Source: a bacterium
Lineage (GTDB): Bacteria > ARS69
Assembly: GCA_025774865.1 (NCBI GenBank)
Contig: JALGZO010000304.1
Span: 1 to 9,745, forward strand
Direction of reading: 5' to 3'
Length of the DNA: 9,745 bases
Positions 1,819 to 9,745 of this stretch are shown piece by piece. The notes below the pieces were generated by a model. That model was not told the origin of the DNA. It saw only the letters and a list, made by a program, of their open reading frames with translations, and did not search any database. The number at the start of each line of letters is the position of its first letter. Position 1 is the stretch's first letter. The position numbers were made by a program, and so were the translations under genes.

Positions 1819-1877
1819 CACACCTTCTTTCCCGGCACGACCTGGAGGGCGCCGCGATATTTAGAGATCTTCATCAT
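1818..1877 (-). other. 19-codon mini-ORF bridging methyltransferase fragment and PLP enzyme
   Basis: A short reading frame starts MMKISKYRG and ends in PGKKV-stop. Its first ATG overlaps the TGA of the methyltransferase fragment (bases 1874-1877), and its TGA overlaps the ATG of the PLP enzyme (TGATG). It has no Shine-Dalgarno of its own. It may be a translational-coupling peptide, a leftover of the deleted methyltransferase end, or chance. The segment is locally AT-richer (TAAATAT near 1856-1863), which could also act as a -10 element for the PLP-enzyme gene, but I find no matching -35. Confidence 0.25.
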
Positions 1878-2131
1878 GCTGCGTGGGTGACGAAGACCCG
1901 GTCGAATGCTCCGTCCGGAAACGACACACGAGCCGCGTCGCCTTCGACGAATCGAAGCCCCGGGCGGCACCGCTTCCGGGCACGTCGAAGCTGCCCCGGC
2001 GACAGGTCGACACCCACGACCTCGCCCCCCGTCCCCGCCCGAGCTCGGATCGCCGCACTGACGCCGCCAGTCCCGCAACACAGGTCGAGGATCCTCTCGT
2101 CTCGCCCGAACCACCTCCTTTCGGCGAGCAT
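1874..2131 (-). pseudogene. Truncated class I SAM-dependent methyltransferase fragment
   Basis: The 85-codon frame carries the first half of a Rossmann methyltransferase. Motif I is ILDLCCGTGG (14-23), the acidic motif II strand is VVGVDLSPGQL (38-48), and the motif III/IV region is GDAARVSFPDGAFDRVF (64-80). It then stops at FVTHAA, precisely where UbiE/COQ5-like proteins continue with LHH and the substrate half. Only 55 bp separate this stop from the PLP-enzyme start, and none of the other frames there continues the fold, so the C-terminal 80-120 residues are absent rather than frame-shifted. The N-terminus is also short: an in-frame TAG lies a few codons upstream of the ATG, leaving only 13 residues before motif I. 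The AAAGGAGG inside codons 4-6 has no start codon behind it in this frame. A gene remnant is the simplest reading; a functional mini-domain is unlikely. Confidence 0.7.
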
Positions 2132-2223: not shown

Positions 2224-2925
2224 GTGCGAAGAACAACGATCCTCTGGCTCTGCGCGGGTTCGATTCTGTCCGGCGGCCCCTCCCGGGCGGAGGCTCCGCC
2301 CGATGGACACGGTCAGCGCGACCATTCCGGGCATCACGATGCCACTGCTCATCACCGGTTCGAAGATGCGACCCAGTGGGCTGAGCGGTTCGAGGCGGCC
2401 GAGCGCGATGCCTGGCAGCTCCCCGACTCCGTCATCGCGACGCTGATCCACCGCGACGATCTCGTCGTGGCCGACGTCGGTTCGGCGACCGGATACTTCC
2501 CCGTGCGGTTCGCGCGCGCGACGCCGCGCGGGGCCGTGTTCGGCTCCGACGTCGAGCCCTCCATGGTCATGTACTTGAACGACCGCGCGAGGGTGGAGGG
2601 GCTGACGAACCTCTCGAGCGTGCTCGCCGCCCCGGATGACCCGCATCTTCCTCGACGCGTCGACCTCGTTTTTCTATGCAACACGGTTCACCACATCGAC
2701 GATCGGATCGACTACTTCCAGAGGCTGCGCGAGCAGCTCCGGCCTGGCGGTCGGATCGCCATCGTCGACTTCCGTCTCGCGTCCGAGAAGGGGCCTCCGC
2801 ACAAACTGGCGCCGAACATCGTAGAGGAAGAGTTCTTGGCCGCCGGCTACGAGCTGGCCGAGCGGCACGACTTCTTGCCCGAGCAGTACTTCCTGGTGTT
2901 CGCGTTGGCTACGGAACCGGAGTGA
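2224..2925 (+). CDS. Exported class I SAM-methyltransferase-fold protein with His-rich segment
   Basis: This 233-residue protein starts at GTG 2224. Residues 1-23 form a Sec-type signal peptide: RR at positions 2-3, a hydrophobic core around ILWLCAGSIL, and a probable cut after SRA. Next comes a His-rich stretch (residues 29-45, six His) and then a methyltransferase domain. Motif I is VVADVGSATGYF (81-92), motif II is GSDVEPSM (107-114), motif IV is DLVFLCNTVHHI (147-158), and the post-motif strand is LRPGGRIAIVDF (172-183). The end, DFLPEQYFLVFAL, matches a recurrent family of about 200-250-residue 'methyltransferase domain-containing' proteins that often carry signal peptides. Motif I reads GSATG where GAGTG is usual, so the SAM loop keeps its last Gly but has Ser for the first Ala and Ala for the middle Gly. 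Substrate is unknown. Location outside the cytoplasm is predicted only from the N-terminus and is odd, because SAM is cytoplasmic. The small CxxC gene follows 67 bp downstream on the same strand. Confidence 0.85.
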   Translation: MRRTTILWLCAGSILSGGPSRAEAPPDGHGQRDHSGHHDATAHHRFEDATQWAERFEAAERDAWQLPDSVIATLIHRDDLVVADVGSATGYFPVRFARATPRGAVFGSDVEPSMVMYLNDRARVEGLTNLSSVLAAPDDPHLPRRVDLVFLCNTVHHIDDRIDYFQRLREQLRPGGRIAIVDFRLASEKGPPHKLAPNIVEEEFLAAGYELAERHDFLPEQYFLVFALATEPE

Positions 2926-3184: not shown

Positions 3185-6100
3185 TCAGTTTCCGCCGCCG
3201 CTCCCGAACCCCCGCCCGGGGGTCCACGGTACGCCGGCCGCGTCGAGCTGCCGCTCGAGGGCCGGCAGATCCGACTCCAGTAGCCGGGCGAGCTCCACCC
3301 CGAGCTGCTGGAGCTCTTCGCGGGCGATTGCGAAGTTTTCGCGATGCGTGGCGGTCGGGCCGTACGTCGAGAACAGGTTGCCCATGACCGCCACGTCGAG
3401 GCGCCGCTCGACCGAAACCGGGCCGGGATCGCGGGCCCACAAACGTTGCTCATCCCCGAGGAGCCGTTCCCGCAGATCTTTCAATCGCAGGTCCATCTCG
3501 CGCGCCGCGCCATCCAGGGCCGGATCGGCGGTGGATTGCATCAACGCGGCCTGAATGCCGGTGAGTCGCTCGGCCGTATCATCGAGAGCCGACTTCGCCG
3601 CGCCCACGTCGCGGCGGGCCGCGTCGAGTTCGCGCGTGAACGCGACGAGCTCTTCGTACGACGCGCCCGGCAACACTCCCTTCCGGAGCGGAACGACCTC
3701 GAATCTCTGGCGCTGACCGAGATCCGTCAGCTTCCCTTCGACCCGTTTCTCGAGGCCGACCGTGTAGGTGCCGGGCGCCACGAGGAGCCCCCTCGTCCAC
3801 TCCTCCCATTCGTCCGACGCCTCCGGATCCCACGGTTGCGGCGACGGGTATCGAAGGTCCCACGCCACTCGATGGAATCCTGCGGTCACCGGACCGGTGA
3901 TGCGCCGCACGATCTCGCCGGATTCGTCGCGCACGGTGAGGACGATCTCCGGTTCCTCCTCGCGCGCCTCGTGCCGCAGCTCGACCCAGCCGGGGTACGG
4001 CGTGTCGCCGCCGGCCTCTGCGATCTCCTTCTCCTTCTCGCGGCGCTCCTTCTTGCGCGTCCGGATCTCGTCGCGAAGGTAATACGTGAAGACGGCCCCG
4101 AAGGGAGGGTTCGGCGCCGTGAAAAACGCGTCGCCCTGGCTGGCGCTGCCCTTGTCCCCGAGCGGCCAGCGTTCGAGGTACCACCACGCGTCCCGAACCG
4201 GGAAGAGCTGGGCTTCCCCGGCGAGTGTCTCCTCGGAGAGGTTTCGAAGCGGCGTGTAATCGTCGAGCACCCAGAAGCCGCGGCCGAACGTCGCGCCGAC
4301 GAGATCGTTCTCGCGCCGCTGGATCGCGAGGTCCCGGAACGGGATGTTCGGCACCTTGCCGCCGGTCAGCTTCACCCAGCGGCTGCCCCCGTCCACGGTG
4401 AAGAAGACGCCGAACTCCGTGCCGACGAACAGCAGCTCCGGATCCACGTGGTCCTGCACGAGCCGCCAAACGACGTGCCGCTCCGGCAGGTCACCGGCGA
4501 TGCTCTTCCAGCTCTTGCCGCGGTTCGTCGTCTCGAACACGTACGGCGCGAAGTCACCATTCTTGTGGTGGTCGACGCAGACATAGGCGACATCCGCATC
4601 GTGGAGGTCCGCCTTGATGTCGTTCACGAAGAAGAGGCCCTCGACGCCGGGCAGCTGATCGATCATCCGCCAGCTCGAGCCGCCATCCTCGGTCACCTGA
4701 ATCAGACCGTCGTCGGTGGCCGCGTACATGAGGCCTTCCACGACCGGCGACTCGGACAGCGACGTGATCGTCCCGTACTCCGACATGGCCAGGAAGTCCC
4801 AGATGGCGTCGAAGCTCTGAACCCGGCCCATCATCGGCAGCTCGAGACGATCCAGGTCCCTCGTGAGATCGCCGCTGACCGGACGCCACTGGTTTCCGCG
4901 ATCGTCGCTCCGCCAGACGCGTTGACTCGCGAAATAGATGCGCGCCGGATCGTGCGGGCTGATCAGGATCGGAGAGTCCCAGTTGAACCGGTCCCAGGGC
5001 TCTCCCTTCGCAGGCTGGGGCTGGATGTAAGTGATCTCGCCGGTCCTGCGATCGTAGCGGCAGAGATTCCCGCGCTGCCACTCGCAGTAGACGATGTCGG
5101 GATTCGTCGGGTCGACGGCCGGCTGGTGCCCGTCGCCAAAGAGCGTGATGTGCCAGTCGCTGTTTCGGACGCCGTTGACGTTGTCGGTGCGGGACGGTCC
5201 GCCCTGCGTGTTGTTGTCCTGCGTTCCGCCGTAGAGATTGTAGAACGGCTCGTCGTAGTCGACCGCCACCTTGTAGAATTGCGTCACCGGCAAGTTGGCC
5301 ACGAACTTCCAGTGCTCGCCGAGATCCCAACTCTCGTACAGGCCGCCGTCGCAACCGAGCAGGAGATAATCCGGGTCGTGCGCGACGAAGGCCAGCGCGT
5401 GGCTGTCGCTGTGCATGAACTCGTGCGGGACTTCCCGCAAGGTTTCGCCGCCGTCCTCGGTGACATGCATGCGGACGTCGGCCTGATAGACACGGTCGAA
5501 CGCGTGCGGGCTCGCGAAGAGCTCCTGGTAGTAGTGCGGCCCGGTGCCGCCGGAAATGTAGTCGTTGCGCTTCTCCCAGCTCTCGCCGCCGTCGGACGAG
5601 CGGTAGAAGCCGCCCTTGCGGTGCGCGCGCTCGATCGTGGCGTAGACGACGTCCGGATCCTGGGGCGAGATGGCCAGGCCGATCTTGCCCATCTCCTCTT
5701 CTTCGTCTTTGTCCTTCTCCTCTTCGTCTTTCTCCGGCATGAGGCCGGTCTCGAGCTCTCGCCAGGTCGTGCCACCGTCCGTCGACTTGTGGATGCCGGA
5801 CTCCGGTCCGCCGTTGACGAGAGCGGCCACGTTGCGGAACCGCTGGTGCGTCGCCGCGTAGAGGACTTCGGGATCACGAGGGTCCATCACGACCTCGTTC
5901 ACGCCCGTGTACTCGCCACCGCCGAGGATCTTGTTCCAGGTGCCGCCGCCGTCCGTGGACTTGAAGAGTCCGCGGTCTCCGCCCGCCGACCACAGGGGAC
6001 CCTGCGCCGCGACGTACACCACGTTCGAGTCGCGCGGATCCACGACGATGTTGCCGATGTGCTCCGATTGCCCCAGCCCGACGTTGCTCCAGGTCCGGCC

Positions 6101-6502
6101 GCCGTCCAGGCTCTTGTAGACGCCGTCGCCGTAGCCGACGTGCCGACCGCCGACGTTCTCCCCGGTTCCGATCCAGACGGTCTCCGGACGGTTCGGATCG
6201 AGGGTGACGCAGCCGATCGAGTAGGATCCTTGATCGTCGAAGATCGGTTCCCAGGTCGTGCCCGCGTTCGTGGTCTTCCACACGTTTCCGCTCCCGACCG
6301 CGACGTACCTCGTACTAGGACGGTCGGGATGGATGGCGATGTCGGCGATTCGGCCGGACATGAGGGCCGGCCCGATGCCGCGCAACTCGAGACCCTCGAA
6401 CGTTTCGGCCTGGAATCGAGAGTCCCCGTTCGCGCGAACGGCAGTGGCGTCGGGTGAGTTGCCCAGAACGAGCAGCGTCACGGCGATTCGGATGGTCCTC
6501 AT
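3185..6502 (-). CDS. Large exported Asp-box (BNR/sortilin-VPS10-like) repeat protein
   Basis: This is a 1105-residue protein. The N-terminus (MRTIRIAVTLLVLGNS) is a short signal peptide, cut near ATA or VRA at about residues 21-24. Residues 35-750 form beta-propeller-type repeats with at least eleven Asp-box motifs (S/T-x-D-x-G-x-x-W). These sit at 77, 131, 182, 240, 302, 348, 391, 532, 604, 658 and 702; the 348 copy has Leu for Trp, and 77, 391, 532 and 658 are degenerate. A conserved block YGGTQDNNTQGGPSRT (424-439) is typical of the family annotated as 'glycosyl hydrolase' or 'VPS10 domain' in Acidobacteriota-like genomes. Residues 760-935 look like a beta-sandwich with a FlgD/Ig-like TGPVTAGFHRVAWDLRY segment, and 945-1090 are helical and probably coiled-coil. 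The tail is GFGSGGGN. No catalytic acid/base set of sialidases is recognisable, so binding or peptide handling is as likely as hydrolysis. The start ATG follows an AGGAGAGG (6512-6519) that overlaps the preceding gene's stop. Confidence 0.9.
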   Translation of the reverse strand: MRTIRIAVTLLVLGNSPDATAVRANGDSRFQAETFEGLELRGIGPALMSGRIADIAIHPDRPSTRYVAVGSGNVWKTTNAGTTWEPIFDDQGSYSIGCVTLDPNRPETVWIGTGENVGGRHVGYGDGVYKSLDGGRTWSNVGLGQSEHIGNIVVDPRDSNVVYVAAQGPLWSAGGDRGLFKSTDGGGTWNKILGGGEYTGVNEVVMDPRDPEVLYAATHQRFRNVAALVNGGPESGIHKSTDGGTTWRELETGLMPEKDEEEKDKDEEEEMGKIGLAISPQDPDVVYATIERAHRKGGFYRSSDGGESWEKRNDYISGGTGPHYYQELFASPHAFDRVYQADVRMHVTEDGGETLREVPHEFMHSDSHALAFVAHDPDYLLLGCDGGLYESWDLGEHWKFVANLPVTQFYKVAVDYDEPFYNLYGGTQDNNTQGGPSRTDNVNGVRNSDWHITLFGDGHQPAVDPTNPDIVYCEWQRGNLCRYDRRTGEITYIQPQPAKGEPWDRFNWDSPILISPHDPARIYFASQRVWRSDDRGNQWRPVSGDLTRDLDRLELPMMGRVQSFDAIWDFLAMSEYGTITSLSESPVVEGLMYAATDDGLIQVTEDGGSSWRMIDQLPGVEGLFFVNDIKADLHDADVAYVCVDHHKNGDFAPYVFETTNRGKSWKSIAGDLPERHVVWRLVQDHVDPELLFVGTEFGVFFTVDGGSRWVKLTGGKVPNIPFRDLAIQRRENDLVGATFGRGFWVLDDYTPLRNLSEETLAGEAQLFPVRDAWWYLERWPLGDKGSASQGDAFFTAPNPPFGAVFTYYLRDEIRTRKKERREKEKEIAEAGGDTPYPGWVELRHEAREEEPEIVLTVRDESGEIVRRITGPVTAGFHRVAWDLRYPSPQPWDPEASDEWEEWTRGLLVAPGTYTVGLEKRVEGKLTDLGQRQRFEVVPLRKGVLPGASYEELVAFTRELDAARRDVGAAKSALDDTAERLTGIQAALMQSTADPALDGAAREMDLRLKDLRERLLGDEQRLWARDPGPVSVERRLDVAVMGNLFSTYGPTATHRENFAIAREELQQLGVELARLLESDLPALERQLDAAGVPWTPGRGFGSGGGN
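5690..5731 (-). repeat. 21-nt tandem duplication coding an acidic insert in the Asp-box protein
   Basis: Two adjacent 21-base copies encode KDEEEKD (residues 258-264) and KDEEEEM (265-271). The copies share their first eleven bases exactly and differ at a few later positions. The insert sits in the loop after the fourth Asp-box (S240-W247) and before the next propeller strand. Replication slippage in a GAA/GAG-rich codon run explains it. Confidence 0.75.
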
Positions 6503-7036: not shown

Positions 7037-7042
7037 CCTCCT
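7037..7042 (-). promoter_or_regulatory. Perfect AGGAGG Shine-Dalgarno that decides the lipoprotein start
   Basis: AGGAGG lies six bases before the ATG at 7030 and overlaps the TGA stop of the DUF72 gene (7042-7044). Because the alternative GTG at 7045 lies upstream of this site, the ATG is the start. Confidence 0.85.
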
Positions 7043-7746
7043 CACGTGGATCCAGCCAGCTCCAGGAACTTCGTCGCGAGCGCGGGGCCCGCTCCTTCAT
7101 CCTCGTGCTTGAAGAACACGAATGCATCGGACCAACCCTGTGTGCTCACCTGCTTCCCCCATTCCGCGAGCTCCGCGTCAGAGTACTCCGGACGTCGGAG
7201 CCGAAGATAGCCCCAGGAGGCCGTACTCACCAAAGGGGTGGAAGACTCTTCGCCCGTGTCCGCCACGCAGATCGCGCAGTTCCTTCTGCGCAGCGCGTCG
7301 AAGACTTCGTCATCGAACCAGCTCGCGTGTCGGAACTCGAACGCGGCGCGCGTCTCATCGGTCAGGTGCTCCAGGAAACCCTCGAGACGCTCGACGTCCT
7401 TCTTCATATAGGGTGGCAACTGGAAGAGGATGACTCCGAGCCGCTCACTCAGAGCCTTCGAGGTGCGAAGCAGATAGTCCGTCTCCTCTGCGGCTTCCTT
7501 CAACCGTTTCATGTGGGTGATGCGGCGCGACGCCTTCAGCGAGAATCGAAACGTGTCGGGCACCTGATCCGCCCACGCCTCGAGGACACTCGTCTTCGGC
7601 ATGCGGTAGAACGTGTTGTTGATCTCGACGGCCGGGAGTCGCTCGCCGTAGTAGCGAAGCATGTCCTTCGCGGCAAGATCTTCAGGGTAAAAGCTCCCCT
7701 TCCACTCCTTGTAGCTGTAGCCGCTCGTCCCCACGCACAGATTCAT
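7042..7746 (-). CDS. DUF72 (YecE-like) family protein
   Basis: This 234-residue TIM-barrel-type protein has all the DUF72 landmarks. They are GTSGYSYKEWKGSFYP (6-21), VEINNTFYRMP (40-50), FRFSLKASRRITH (66-78), LGVILFQLPP (103-112), FEFRHASW (136-143), CVADTGE (160-166) and a terminal FFKHEDEGAGPALA (211-224). The last block differs slightly from the more common FNN...GxAPxNA form but occupies the same place. Length is usual for the family (230-290), at the short end. The function of DUF72 is not established; the fold and conserved polar residues suggest binding of a phosphorylated or nucleic-acid ligand, but that is inference. It has no signal peptide and is cytoplasmic, unlike its neighbours. 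The start ATG at 7746 follows a GGGGTGA. The repeat-protein gene ends 50 bp upstream, with no promoter visible in between. Confidence 0.93.
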   Translation of the reverse strand: MNLCVGTSGYSYKEWKGSFYPEDLAAKDMLRYYGERLPAVEINNTFYRMPKTSVLEAWADQVPDTFRFSLKASRRITHMKRLKEAAEETDYLLRTSKALSERLGVILFQLPPYMKKDVERLEGFLEHLTDETRAAFEFRHASWFDDEVFDALRRRNCAICVADTGEESSTPLVSTASWGYLRLRRPEYSDAELAEWGKQVSTQGWSDAFVFFKHEDEGAGPALATKFLELAGST

Positions 7747-7796: not shown

Positions 7797-8315
7797 TCAG
7801 AACTGCCAGTTCACGATCGGCATGAACTTGAACTTCGCCTGCCCGGTCGCGAAGTTGAGGATGCCGATCTGCAGACCGTTGAGATCGCCCGTCACGTTGA
7901 CCGCCCCGAGCTGCAGGCCGCGGGCCGATTCCGACTTGTTGACGAGTCCGAACTGGATACCCTCGAGGCTCCCACTCTCCGTGTAGAGTCCGCTCTGAAA
8001 TCCGACGAACGCTCCCTTCGTGATGCTCACGAAGTGATCCTGCCAGCCGGTGAAGTCGCCCTCCACGTAGCCTACCCCACCCCACTGGACACCCGCCACT
8101 GAGCCCGAGGTTCGGCTGACGAGCCCGATGTCCACCCCCGTGAGGTCGACATTGTAACCGTAGAGAAGGCTCAGCCGGAGCCCTTTGACCGACGTGGTGT
8201 TTTCGAAGATCTGCACCGGATCGAAGAGCGAGAGCTGGACCTGCTTTTCCTCGGAGGCCTGCGCGGCTGAGGCAGCGATGAAGACGGCCGCCGCGGCGAA
8301 GACGATATTGCGCAT
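7797..8315 (-). CDS. Exported repeat protein of the LA_2272 surface-repeat type
   Basis: The product is 172 residues from the ATG at 8315. In-frame starts further upstream overlap the promoter and would precede the signal peptide, so I discard them. MRNIVFAAAAVFIAASAAQA is a classical Sec signal peptide with cleavage after AQA. From residue 45 there are eight back-to-back units, each opening with G-[hydrophobic]-[Q/D/R], at G45, G60, G75, G90, G105, G119, G133 and G147. The period is 15 residues for the first units and 14 for the later ones, with a consensus like GLQxGLVNxxxG. This matches what is annotated as the LA_2272 surface repeat family. The protein ends in NWQF, an aromatic C-terminal residue typical of outer-membrane beta proteins. 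I infer a beta-solenoid or small barrel at the outer membrane or cell surface; the ligand is unknown. It is the first gene of the four-gene unit and has its own promoter at 8344-8372. Confidence 0.85.
   Translation of the reverse strand: MRNIVFAAAAVFIAASAAQASEEKQVQLSLFDPVQIFENTTSVKGLRLSLLYGYNVDLTGVDIGLVSRTSGSVAGVQWGGVGYVEGDFTGWQDHFVSITKGAFVGFQSGLYTESGSLEGIQFGLVNKSESARGLQLGAVNVTGDLNGLQIGILNFATGQAKFKFMPIVNWQF
7833..8183 (-). repeat. Eight 14-15-residue coding repeats
   Basis: The segment codes for residues 45-161 of the surface-repeat protein. Glycines at 45, 60, 75, 90, 105, 119, 133 and 147 mark the unit starts. The DNA copies have diverged; the periodicity is clear only in protein sequence. 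Confidence 0.85.
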
Positions 8316-8321
8316 CACGAA

Positions 8322-8326
8322 CTCCT
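8322..8326 (-). promoter_or_regulatory. Shine-Dalgarno of the surface-repeat gene
   Basis: AGGAG lies six bases before the ATG at 8315 and selects this start, which places the signal peptide exactly at the N-terminus. Confidence 0.8.
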
Positions 8327-8343
8327 GGGGAAAGGGGGACGTC

Positions 8344-8372
8344 ATGCTAGGTTGGGGCCGCGGCATTGTCAA
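8344..8372 (-). promoter_or_regulatory. Near-consensus sigma-70-type promoter of the four-gene unit
   Basis: On the minus strand there is a perfect -35 hexamer TTGACA (8367-8372), a 17-bp spacer (8350-8366) and a -10 hexamer TAGCAT (8344-8349, four of six consensus bases). Transcription would start near 8337, giving a leader of roughly 20 bases with the AGGAG site. The -35 overlaps the TGA stop of the glycosyltransferase gene (8369-8371). It stands out in a region where other intergenic spacers show no such pair. Confidence 0.75.
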
Positions 8373-9745
8373 CGGACCCGCGGAACGTCGAAGTCGCGCA
8401 GGCGCGCCTGCGCTTCCGCATGGTCGGGTTCGAGTTCGAGCACCCGCTCCAGGAGGCCGCGCGCCACGGCGGTCCGGTCTTCCTCCGGCCGGGCGGCGTG
8501 CGTTTCGACGAGCACGCGGGCCGCGTCGAGTAAGACGTCCGGGAAGTCGTCGCGGACGCGGAGTGAGCGCCGAAACGACTCCACCGACTCTTCCGTTCTA
8601 CCCAGGTCGAAGAGAGCTCGTCCCAGATCCGCGAGAACGTCCGCGTCCTCCGGACGGTCCTCCAGCGCGTCGCTCAACGCGGCCGCGGCGGAATCCGGGC
8701 GGCCGAGCCGCAGGAATGCGCGGCCACGGAGCGCCAGGAGATCCCCGTCTCCCGCCTTCAGCTCGAGCCCGAGGGCCGTGACCTCGACCGCGCGGCGATC
8801 GTCCCCCGCTTCGAGCGCCAACGCCGCATAGCCCACGTATGACTCCACGCGCGAAGGATCTTCCTGAAACGACCCCACCCACCACCGCGCCGCCTCTTCC
8901 AGCTCGCCACGCTCCTCGTAGACGAACGCCACGCGCTCCATCTCCTCGGCGAAGCCGCCGGGCTCCGACACGTCCTGGTGGACGATCATCGCCGCGGCTA
9001 CGACGCCGGCGACCGCGATCGCTGCGGCCCGGCGCTGGTCGGAGCGAAGCCAGCCGACGATCCGGACGAGCGCGTACGCGGCGAATCCGATGAGAAACGG
9101 AACGACCGGCAAGCGGTAGCGGCTGCCCACGACCGTGAGAACGACCGCGAGGCCCTGCGGCACCGCGAACGCGTACAGGAGCCACGGTCGCCGGGGCCCG
9201 ATCACCCCGAGGACGAGCCCGACGATCGCTAGCGGCCCGACCCAGCCGAAGTCCGGCAGCCACGGCGCGCTCTGGAGCGGCGCGAATCGATCGAAGAAGT
9301 ACGGCGACATGATCACTCGCAGCTCGCGCTCGTGAAAGAACAAGAACAGCTTGCGGAACTGGAGAGCCGCGAACGCCACCGGATCGTCACGAAGAAATTC
9401 GAGCACGCGATCGCGGAAGTAGGCTTCGTGCTCCGGCAGCGTCTTCGCGCCACCCTCCCGCTCCGGCTCGAAGCTCAGACGATCCCAATCCCGCCCGGGG
9501 CGAATTGTGTGGTAGCCAGCTGCTTCGGGGCGGTTGCCCAGATAGAGGTTGATCGCCATGTGGTGCCGCAGCGCGAACATCCCGCTGAGCTGATGGTTGC
9601 GCACGAGAACGGGAGTCGCCACCACGGCGACCGCCGCGAGCAGCGGCCACGTCCGGACCAGGCGGGAGGGCCACCGGCCGCGTTCCGTCGCGGCTACGAA
9701 CCACAGGAGAAAGGGCAATGAGAAGAGCGCATTCGGTCGGGTGAT
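8369..9745 (-). CDS. PMT/ArnT-like membrane glycosyltransferase with C-terminal TPR domain, 5' end cut by window edge
   Basis: The frame is open to the right edge (the first readable residues are ITRPNALFSL), and 458 residues are visible. A leucine codon TTG at 9718 could be mistaken for a start, but the TRPNAL motif before it is the usual continuation of this family. Numbering from the edge, membrane segments lie near 5-18, 31-48, 167-183, 187-206, 212-232 and 240-256. The loop between the second and third holds RNHQLSG...INLYLGNRPEAAGY, the extracytoplasmic GN-P block of PMT/GT39-like enzymes, and SRYRLPVVPF (208-217) is another family signature. Residues 266-449 are helical repeats matching TPRs. 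Such enzymes transfer a sugar from a polyprenyl-phosphate donor on the periplasmic face of the inner membrane; the catalytic N-terminal Asp-containing loop lies outside the window. The TPR tail probably recruits a partner or acceptor. The gene ends just inside the promoter of the next unit. Confidence 0.88.
   Translation of the reverse strand: MTRPNALFSLPFLLWFVAATERGRWPSRLVRTWPLLAAVAVVATPVLVRNHQLSGMFALRHHMAINLYLGNRPEAAGYHTIRPGRDWDRLSFEPEREGGAKTLPEHEAYFRDRVLEFLRDDPVAFAALQFRKLFLFFHERELRVIMSPYFFDRFAPLQSAPWLPDFGWVGPLAIVGLVLGVIGPRRPWLLYAFAVPQGLAVVLTVVGSRYRLPVVPFLIGFAAYALVRIVGWLRSDQRRAAAIAVAGVVAAAMIVHQDVSEPGGFAEEMERVAFVYEERGELEEAARWWVGSFQEDPSRVESYVGYAALALEAGDDRRAVEVTALGLELKAGDGDLLALRGRAFLRLGRPDSAAAALSDALEDRPEDADVLADLGRALFDLGRTEESVESFRRSLRVRDDFPDVLLDAARVLVETHAARPEEDRTAVARGLLERVLELEPDHAEAQARLRDFDVPRVR
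8372..8950 (-). repeat. TPR-coding region of the glycosyltransferase
   Basis: About five helical pairs follow the last membrane segment. Typical TPR positions are seen in ALALEAGDDRRAVEV, GRAFLRLGRPDSAAAAL and GRALFDLGRTEESVESF, each about 34 residues apart. The final unit is less regular and includes a longer insert (ARPEEDRTA). Confidence 0.75.

Follow-up and report, generated by a model that had tools for sequence, protein, structure and literature searches.

A glycine-marked repeat protein of the VC2662/LA_2272 group whose units shorten towards the C-terminus, probably a parallel beta-solenoid

The window (the whole stretch of 9,745 nucleotides that was analysed) encodes on its minus strand a 172-residue protein related to the VC2662 and LA_2272 repeat proteins, built from units of 15 and then 14 residues; this shortening towards the C-terminus recurs throughout the family. 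The explanation that we favour, and hold to be probably correct, is that the protein is an exported member of this group in which the units make up the successive coils of a parallel beta-solenoid, acting as a scaffold or binding rod in the cell envelope. The gene itself is unremarkable, one more member of a known but little-studied repeat group, and its parts are as follows.

7797..8315, minus strand: repeat-protein gene, ATG to stop, 172 amino acids (AGGAG upstream, NCBIfam matches, homologue alignments A1 and A2)
8253..8315, minus strand: putative signal peptide, approximately residues 1-21, ending ...SAAQA-S (by eye; homologue starts are alike)
8184..8252, minus strand: N-terminal segment, residues 22-44, with a conserved LF-x-PVQ-I motif (conservation across alignment A2)
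8004..8183, minus strand: four 15-residue units, residues 45-104 (glycine spacing and unit profile)
7836..8003, minus strand: four 14-residue units, residues 105-160, with glycines at 105, 119, 133 and 147 (glycine spacing, unit profile and taper test)
7800..7835, minus strand: C-terminal segment KFKFMPIVNWQF, residues 161-172 (conserved P-x-[VI]-N-[WF]-x-F end)
8322..8326, minus strand: Shine-Dalgarno-like AGGAG, six bases before the ATG at 8315 (read from the sequence)
8344..8372, minus strand: promoter-like TTGACA-17-TAGCAT (motif scan, 10 of 12 matches)

The gene, its surroundings and its family

The start codon is probably the ATG at 8315, which lies behind the AGGAG. The preliminary description had taken 7797-8372 as the gene, but the TTG at 8372 falls within the proposed -35 box, and the ATG is the likelier start. 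This -35 box also shares bases with the stop codon of the TPR gene upstream (8372-9718). The promoter-like site had been described as the only clear one in the window, and it is indeed the one site to pass the scan; shuffled windows, however, contain 0.6 such sites on average, so that the match is not significant by itself. The high constitutive expression that had been read from it is not upheld, given this chance level and the absence of such a site upstream of the homologue in genome G004, which belongs to the same taxonomic family.

Directly downstream lies a DUF72 gene (7042-7746, minus; PF01904, E 8e-63), which does not adjoin the repeat gene in G004; there the homologue adjoins two sugar-epimerase-like genes. 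Comparison of 20 loci disclosed no conserved neighbour gene widely common to the lineages, so that a role for the protein can only be inferred. Elsewhere in the window, 3185-6502 (minus) encodes an exported protein of 1105 residues that contains Sortilin-Vps10 and BNR-type repeats (PF15902, E 3e-30; its NF045728 score, 143.6 bits, stays short of the cut-off of 175), and the 1037-residue open frame antisense to it (3344-6457, plus) is probably a shadow of coding sequence of high G+C content. A protein encoded at 2224-2925 (plus) resembles SAM-dependent methyltransferases by eye and has an apparent signal peptide, which is unusual for such enzymes; an 85-residue frame at 1874-2131 (minus), with a methyltransferase-like LDLCCGTGG motif and an early stop, may be a gene remnant.

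The resemblance to the LA_2272 repeat noted previously was borne out by the NCBIfam model NF047436, which scored 40.1 bits against a cut-off of 25 (44.3 bits in the genome search, neighbours in frame included). This LA_2272 surface-repeat model shares its repeat unit with the protein but spans 30 residues, that is two units, and is silent on the protein as a whole. The model of the VC2662 family (NF047437) matches residues 4-170 at profile positions 5-185 of 187 (59.1 bits, E 3.8e-16), and the likeness to Vibrio cholerae VC2662 and its relatives extends to the overall plan of signal peptide, N-terminal segment, seven to nine units and a C-terminal PxxNxx end; despite this full-length match the score lies far under the 140 bits at which the NCBI rule assigns membership. 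A third model, NF047435 (LA_2272/LA_2273 family lipoprotein), scored 37.2 bits against a cut-off of 30, with its best stretch at residues 40-81, but the 172 residues include no cysteine, hence no lipobox, and identity as a lipoprotein is ruled out. All three models were matched by all 22 aligned homologues. Neither Pfam, PHROGs nor the PDB sequences gave a match for the protein, and the alignment of the 22 homologues yielded no relative in the PDB and, from Pfam, nothing beyond scattered matches of single members above E 0.05. The source genome holds a single copy of the gene, as judged by a genome-wide profile search.

Periodicity and taper of the units

All eight glycines reported earlier, at residues 45, 60, 75, 90, 105, 119, 133 and 147, are found at those positions in the 172-residue reading from the ATG at 8315, with successive spacings of 15, 15, 15, 15, 14, 14 and 14. 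When the mature sequence was shuffled 100,000 times, an equally long chain of eight glycines at 14/15 spacing arose only 36 times, so the arrangement is not due to chance; the self-similarity of the protein peaks at lags of 15 residues (z 4.2) and 14 residues (z 2.5). Across the family the unit of 14 or 15 residues follows the consensus G-phi-Q-phi-G-phi-phi-N-x-[AST]-(x)-G-[DNS]-phi-x. In a profile derived from 143 fourteen-residue units the glycines are conserved at positions 1 (97%) and 5 (82%), glutamine at position 3 (88%) and asparagine at position 8 (90%); positions 2, 4, 6, 7 and 13 are hydrophobic, 9 is x, 10 is A, T or S, 11 and 12 are polar and 14 mostly so. Units of 15 residues have an additional residue after N8 but before the glycine close to the unit end, and this residue would sit in a putative turn after the asparagine. 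The ends of the family are likewise kept, with the LF-x-PVQ segment before the units and P-x-V-N-W-x-F after them (alignment A2), and residues 22-44 are probably an N-cap.

The step from 15 to 14 residues is family-wide among 57 non-redundant homologues. Towards the C-terminus the units become shorter (16 to 15 to 14) in 48 of the 51 scorable proteins and longer in two; none of 10,000 within-protein shuffles produced a taper as strong. The units were identified with a manually devised score that is independent of position, makes no difference between 14 and 15 residues and sets a slight penalty on 16. The last unit has 14 residues in 47 of these 51 proteins. The taper is present separately in the short members and in the long fusions; the order of units in long members is 16...16,15,14,14(,14). 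A closed beta-solenoid of two stacked halves, as suggested in the preliminary description, is rejected because the long members have three unit lengths; the step seen in the present protein is the end of the family taper, and in longer members 16-residue units lie upstream of it. Shrinking coils across a family seem not to have been described previously. We tentatively propose, as a possibility that we rate somewhat short of even, that the family represents a type of beta-solenoid without a solved structure, conical in shape, with coils that narrow from 16 to 15 to 14 residues according to a fixed programme, coil size being set by distance from the C-terminal cap and the smallest coils lying beside it, and which extends from stand-alone envelope proteins to caspase-like and CsgG fusions.

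Evidence on the fold

Among homologues that share their N- and C-terminal segments, the number of units varies in steps of one and is 6, 7, 8 or 9, as exemplified by L037, the first gene at L027, the present protein and the second gene at L027. Turn length does not alternate between neighbouring units, and adjacent units resemble each other more than units two apart. When unit i is compared with unit i+1, residue covariation is greatest in the parallel register 0 (z 18.6), with lesser signals at +2 (z 3.7) and -2 (z 3.1) and negative values at +1 and -1, which matches residues on one face of a parallel sheet. The register-0 value drops to z 6.8 at two-unit distance and stands at z 11.6 after removal of near-duplicate pairs, covariation at the same position being partly attributable to unit duplication. 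Single-unit changes, non-alternating turns and parallel-register covariation thus favour a parallel solenoid over an up-and-down barrel, in agreement with the regular repeat originally described and with a beta-solenoid as the likelier of the two folds then suggested; the single-sequence AlphaFold2 models are poor (low confidence, pLDDT 45.6 and 63.9), the better of them having strands of 9-10 residues with short gaps and a hairpin-like look, and a Foldseek search with these models was uninformative (best E 0.3). The two L027 genes (1498-2010 and 2056-2649) are adjoining tandem paralogues with 7 and 9 units respectively, a natural instance of unit gain or loss.

A transmembrane outer-membrane beta-barrel is unlikely, though it has enough in its favour to be weighed seriously. 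Each unit would then supply one strand, roughly ten residues long, and a tight turn, giving about ten strands, and the C-terminal aromatic residue would be the insertion signal. The G-phi-Q-phi-G-phi alternation within the unit and the strands of the better, low-confidence AlphaFold2 fragment are in keeping with this, and two old genome-wide predictions class LA_2272 or LA_2273 of Leptospira as outer-membrane proteins (PMC5348505, PMC2387172). The terminal Phe that had earlier prompted the suggestion of a small outer-membrane structure is common but not universal: it ends 20 of 37 short members, and 32 of the 37 have an aromatic residue among the last three. An outer-membrane beta-barrel has an even number of antiparallel strands, and with odd as well as even unit numbers between similar ends, the C-terminal strand would come to lie on the wrong side. 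Neighbouring units do not alternate, L013 has up to about 20 similar units, and there is no general antiparallel register, the best in the full set reaching z 2.6. One such register (p+q=19, in block positions) gives z 5.0 in the short-protein subset only and is not explained by parallel coils; it vanishes in the full set.

The heads of trimeric autotransporters such as YadA, BpaC and UspA1, which are left-handed parallel beta-rolls, offer an analogy in their parallel stacking and their layers of equal length, 14 residues or, in UspA1, mostly 15; gain and loss of single layers has been proposed for them too (PMC9543794). That the present protein is a surface adhesin with an oligomer-only roll of this kind is nevertheless quite improbable: no Pfam head model was matched by 22 members even at E 10, no sequence relation was found, the YadA-type layer has one invariant glycine, at position 8, where the repeat family conserves Gly 1, Gly 5, Q3 and N8, and the 172-residue protein has no stalk or anchor domain. 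It is very hard to credit that the gene is merely glycine-rich, low-complexity coding sequence of no defined fold, with the period a by-product of tandem duplication. Such repeats do arise by duplication, and the greater likeness of adjacent units fits that origin, but the columns of G, Q, N and hydrophobic residues are kept between distant genomes, the taper is family-wide and the ends are conserved.

In the parallel solenoid that we prefer, the 172-residue protein would cross the inner membrane and each 14- or 15-residue unit would become one coil. The G, Q, N and hydrophobic columns would be stacked from coil to coil, with the fifteenth residue accommodated in the turn past the asparagine; the coils would narrow towards the C-terminus, where the conserved PxVNWxF segment would close the stack. 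The product would serve the envelope as a stable scaffold or as a binding rod, located in the periplasm or on the outer membrane.

Distribution, location and possible role

Of 386 genomes sampled across Bacteria, 43 carry the repeat, as do 96 of 195 from the phylum to which G032 belongs; in the source phylum the VC2662 model was matched in two of the five genomes examined. Protein searches and DNA patterns disclosed no family member in viral contigs. A supposed relative in L003 (Saganbacteria) was discarded, since the match there is to GDFTGWQDH, within a domain that resembles carbohydrate-binding ones, and is due to chance. Fusions to caspase-like (PF00656) or CsgG (PF03783) domains occur in some members. 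The caspase fusions L009 (1-2244) and L041 (1078-3294) begin with a caspase-like domain, carry the same glycine repeats mid-protein and continue past the last unit glycine for some 157-161 residues that are barrel-like in look; they look like envelope caspases. CsgG, a component of curli export, is represented by L033 (694-1980, PF03783 scored) and, by resemblance, L007 (1459-2946).

Export, proposed already in the preliminary description, agrees with the N-terminal signal peptide read from the sequence and with the similar beginnings of the homologues, from which we infer it. The source genome encodes Omp85 proteins, and the cell therefore has an outer membrane; given a signal peptide and no anchor, except perhaps the aromatic C-terminus, the protein most likely resides in the periplasm or at the outer membrane. 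That it serves there as a structural or binding rod is suggested with low confidence. The literature searched assigns no role to the repeat family, for which one mutant, loss of VC2662, has been described: in V. cholerae, VC2662 increases in abundance when OmpU is lost, and an ompU-deleted strain from which it had been removed as well resembled the ompU mutant in colony phenotype (PMC10865864). The repeat is widespread in bacteria, yet has neither a Pfam entry nor a solved relative. The taper, together with the covariation for parallel stacking, is the part of this analysis most worth keeping, and a fold model in which coil size can be predicted from position would offer repeat-protein designers a tapered example from nature.
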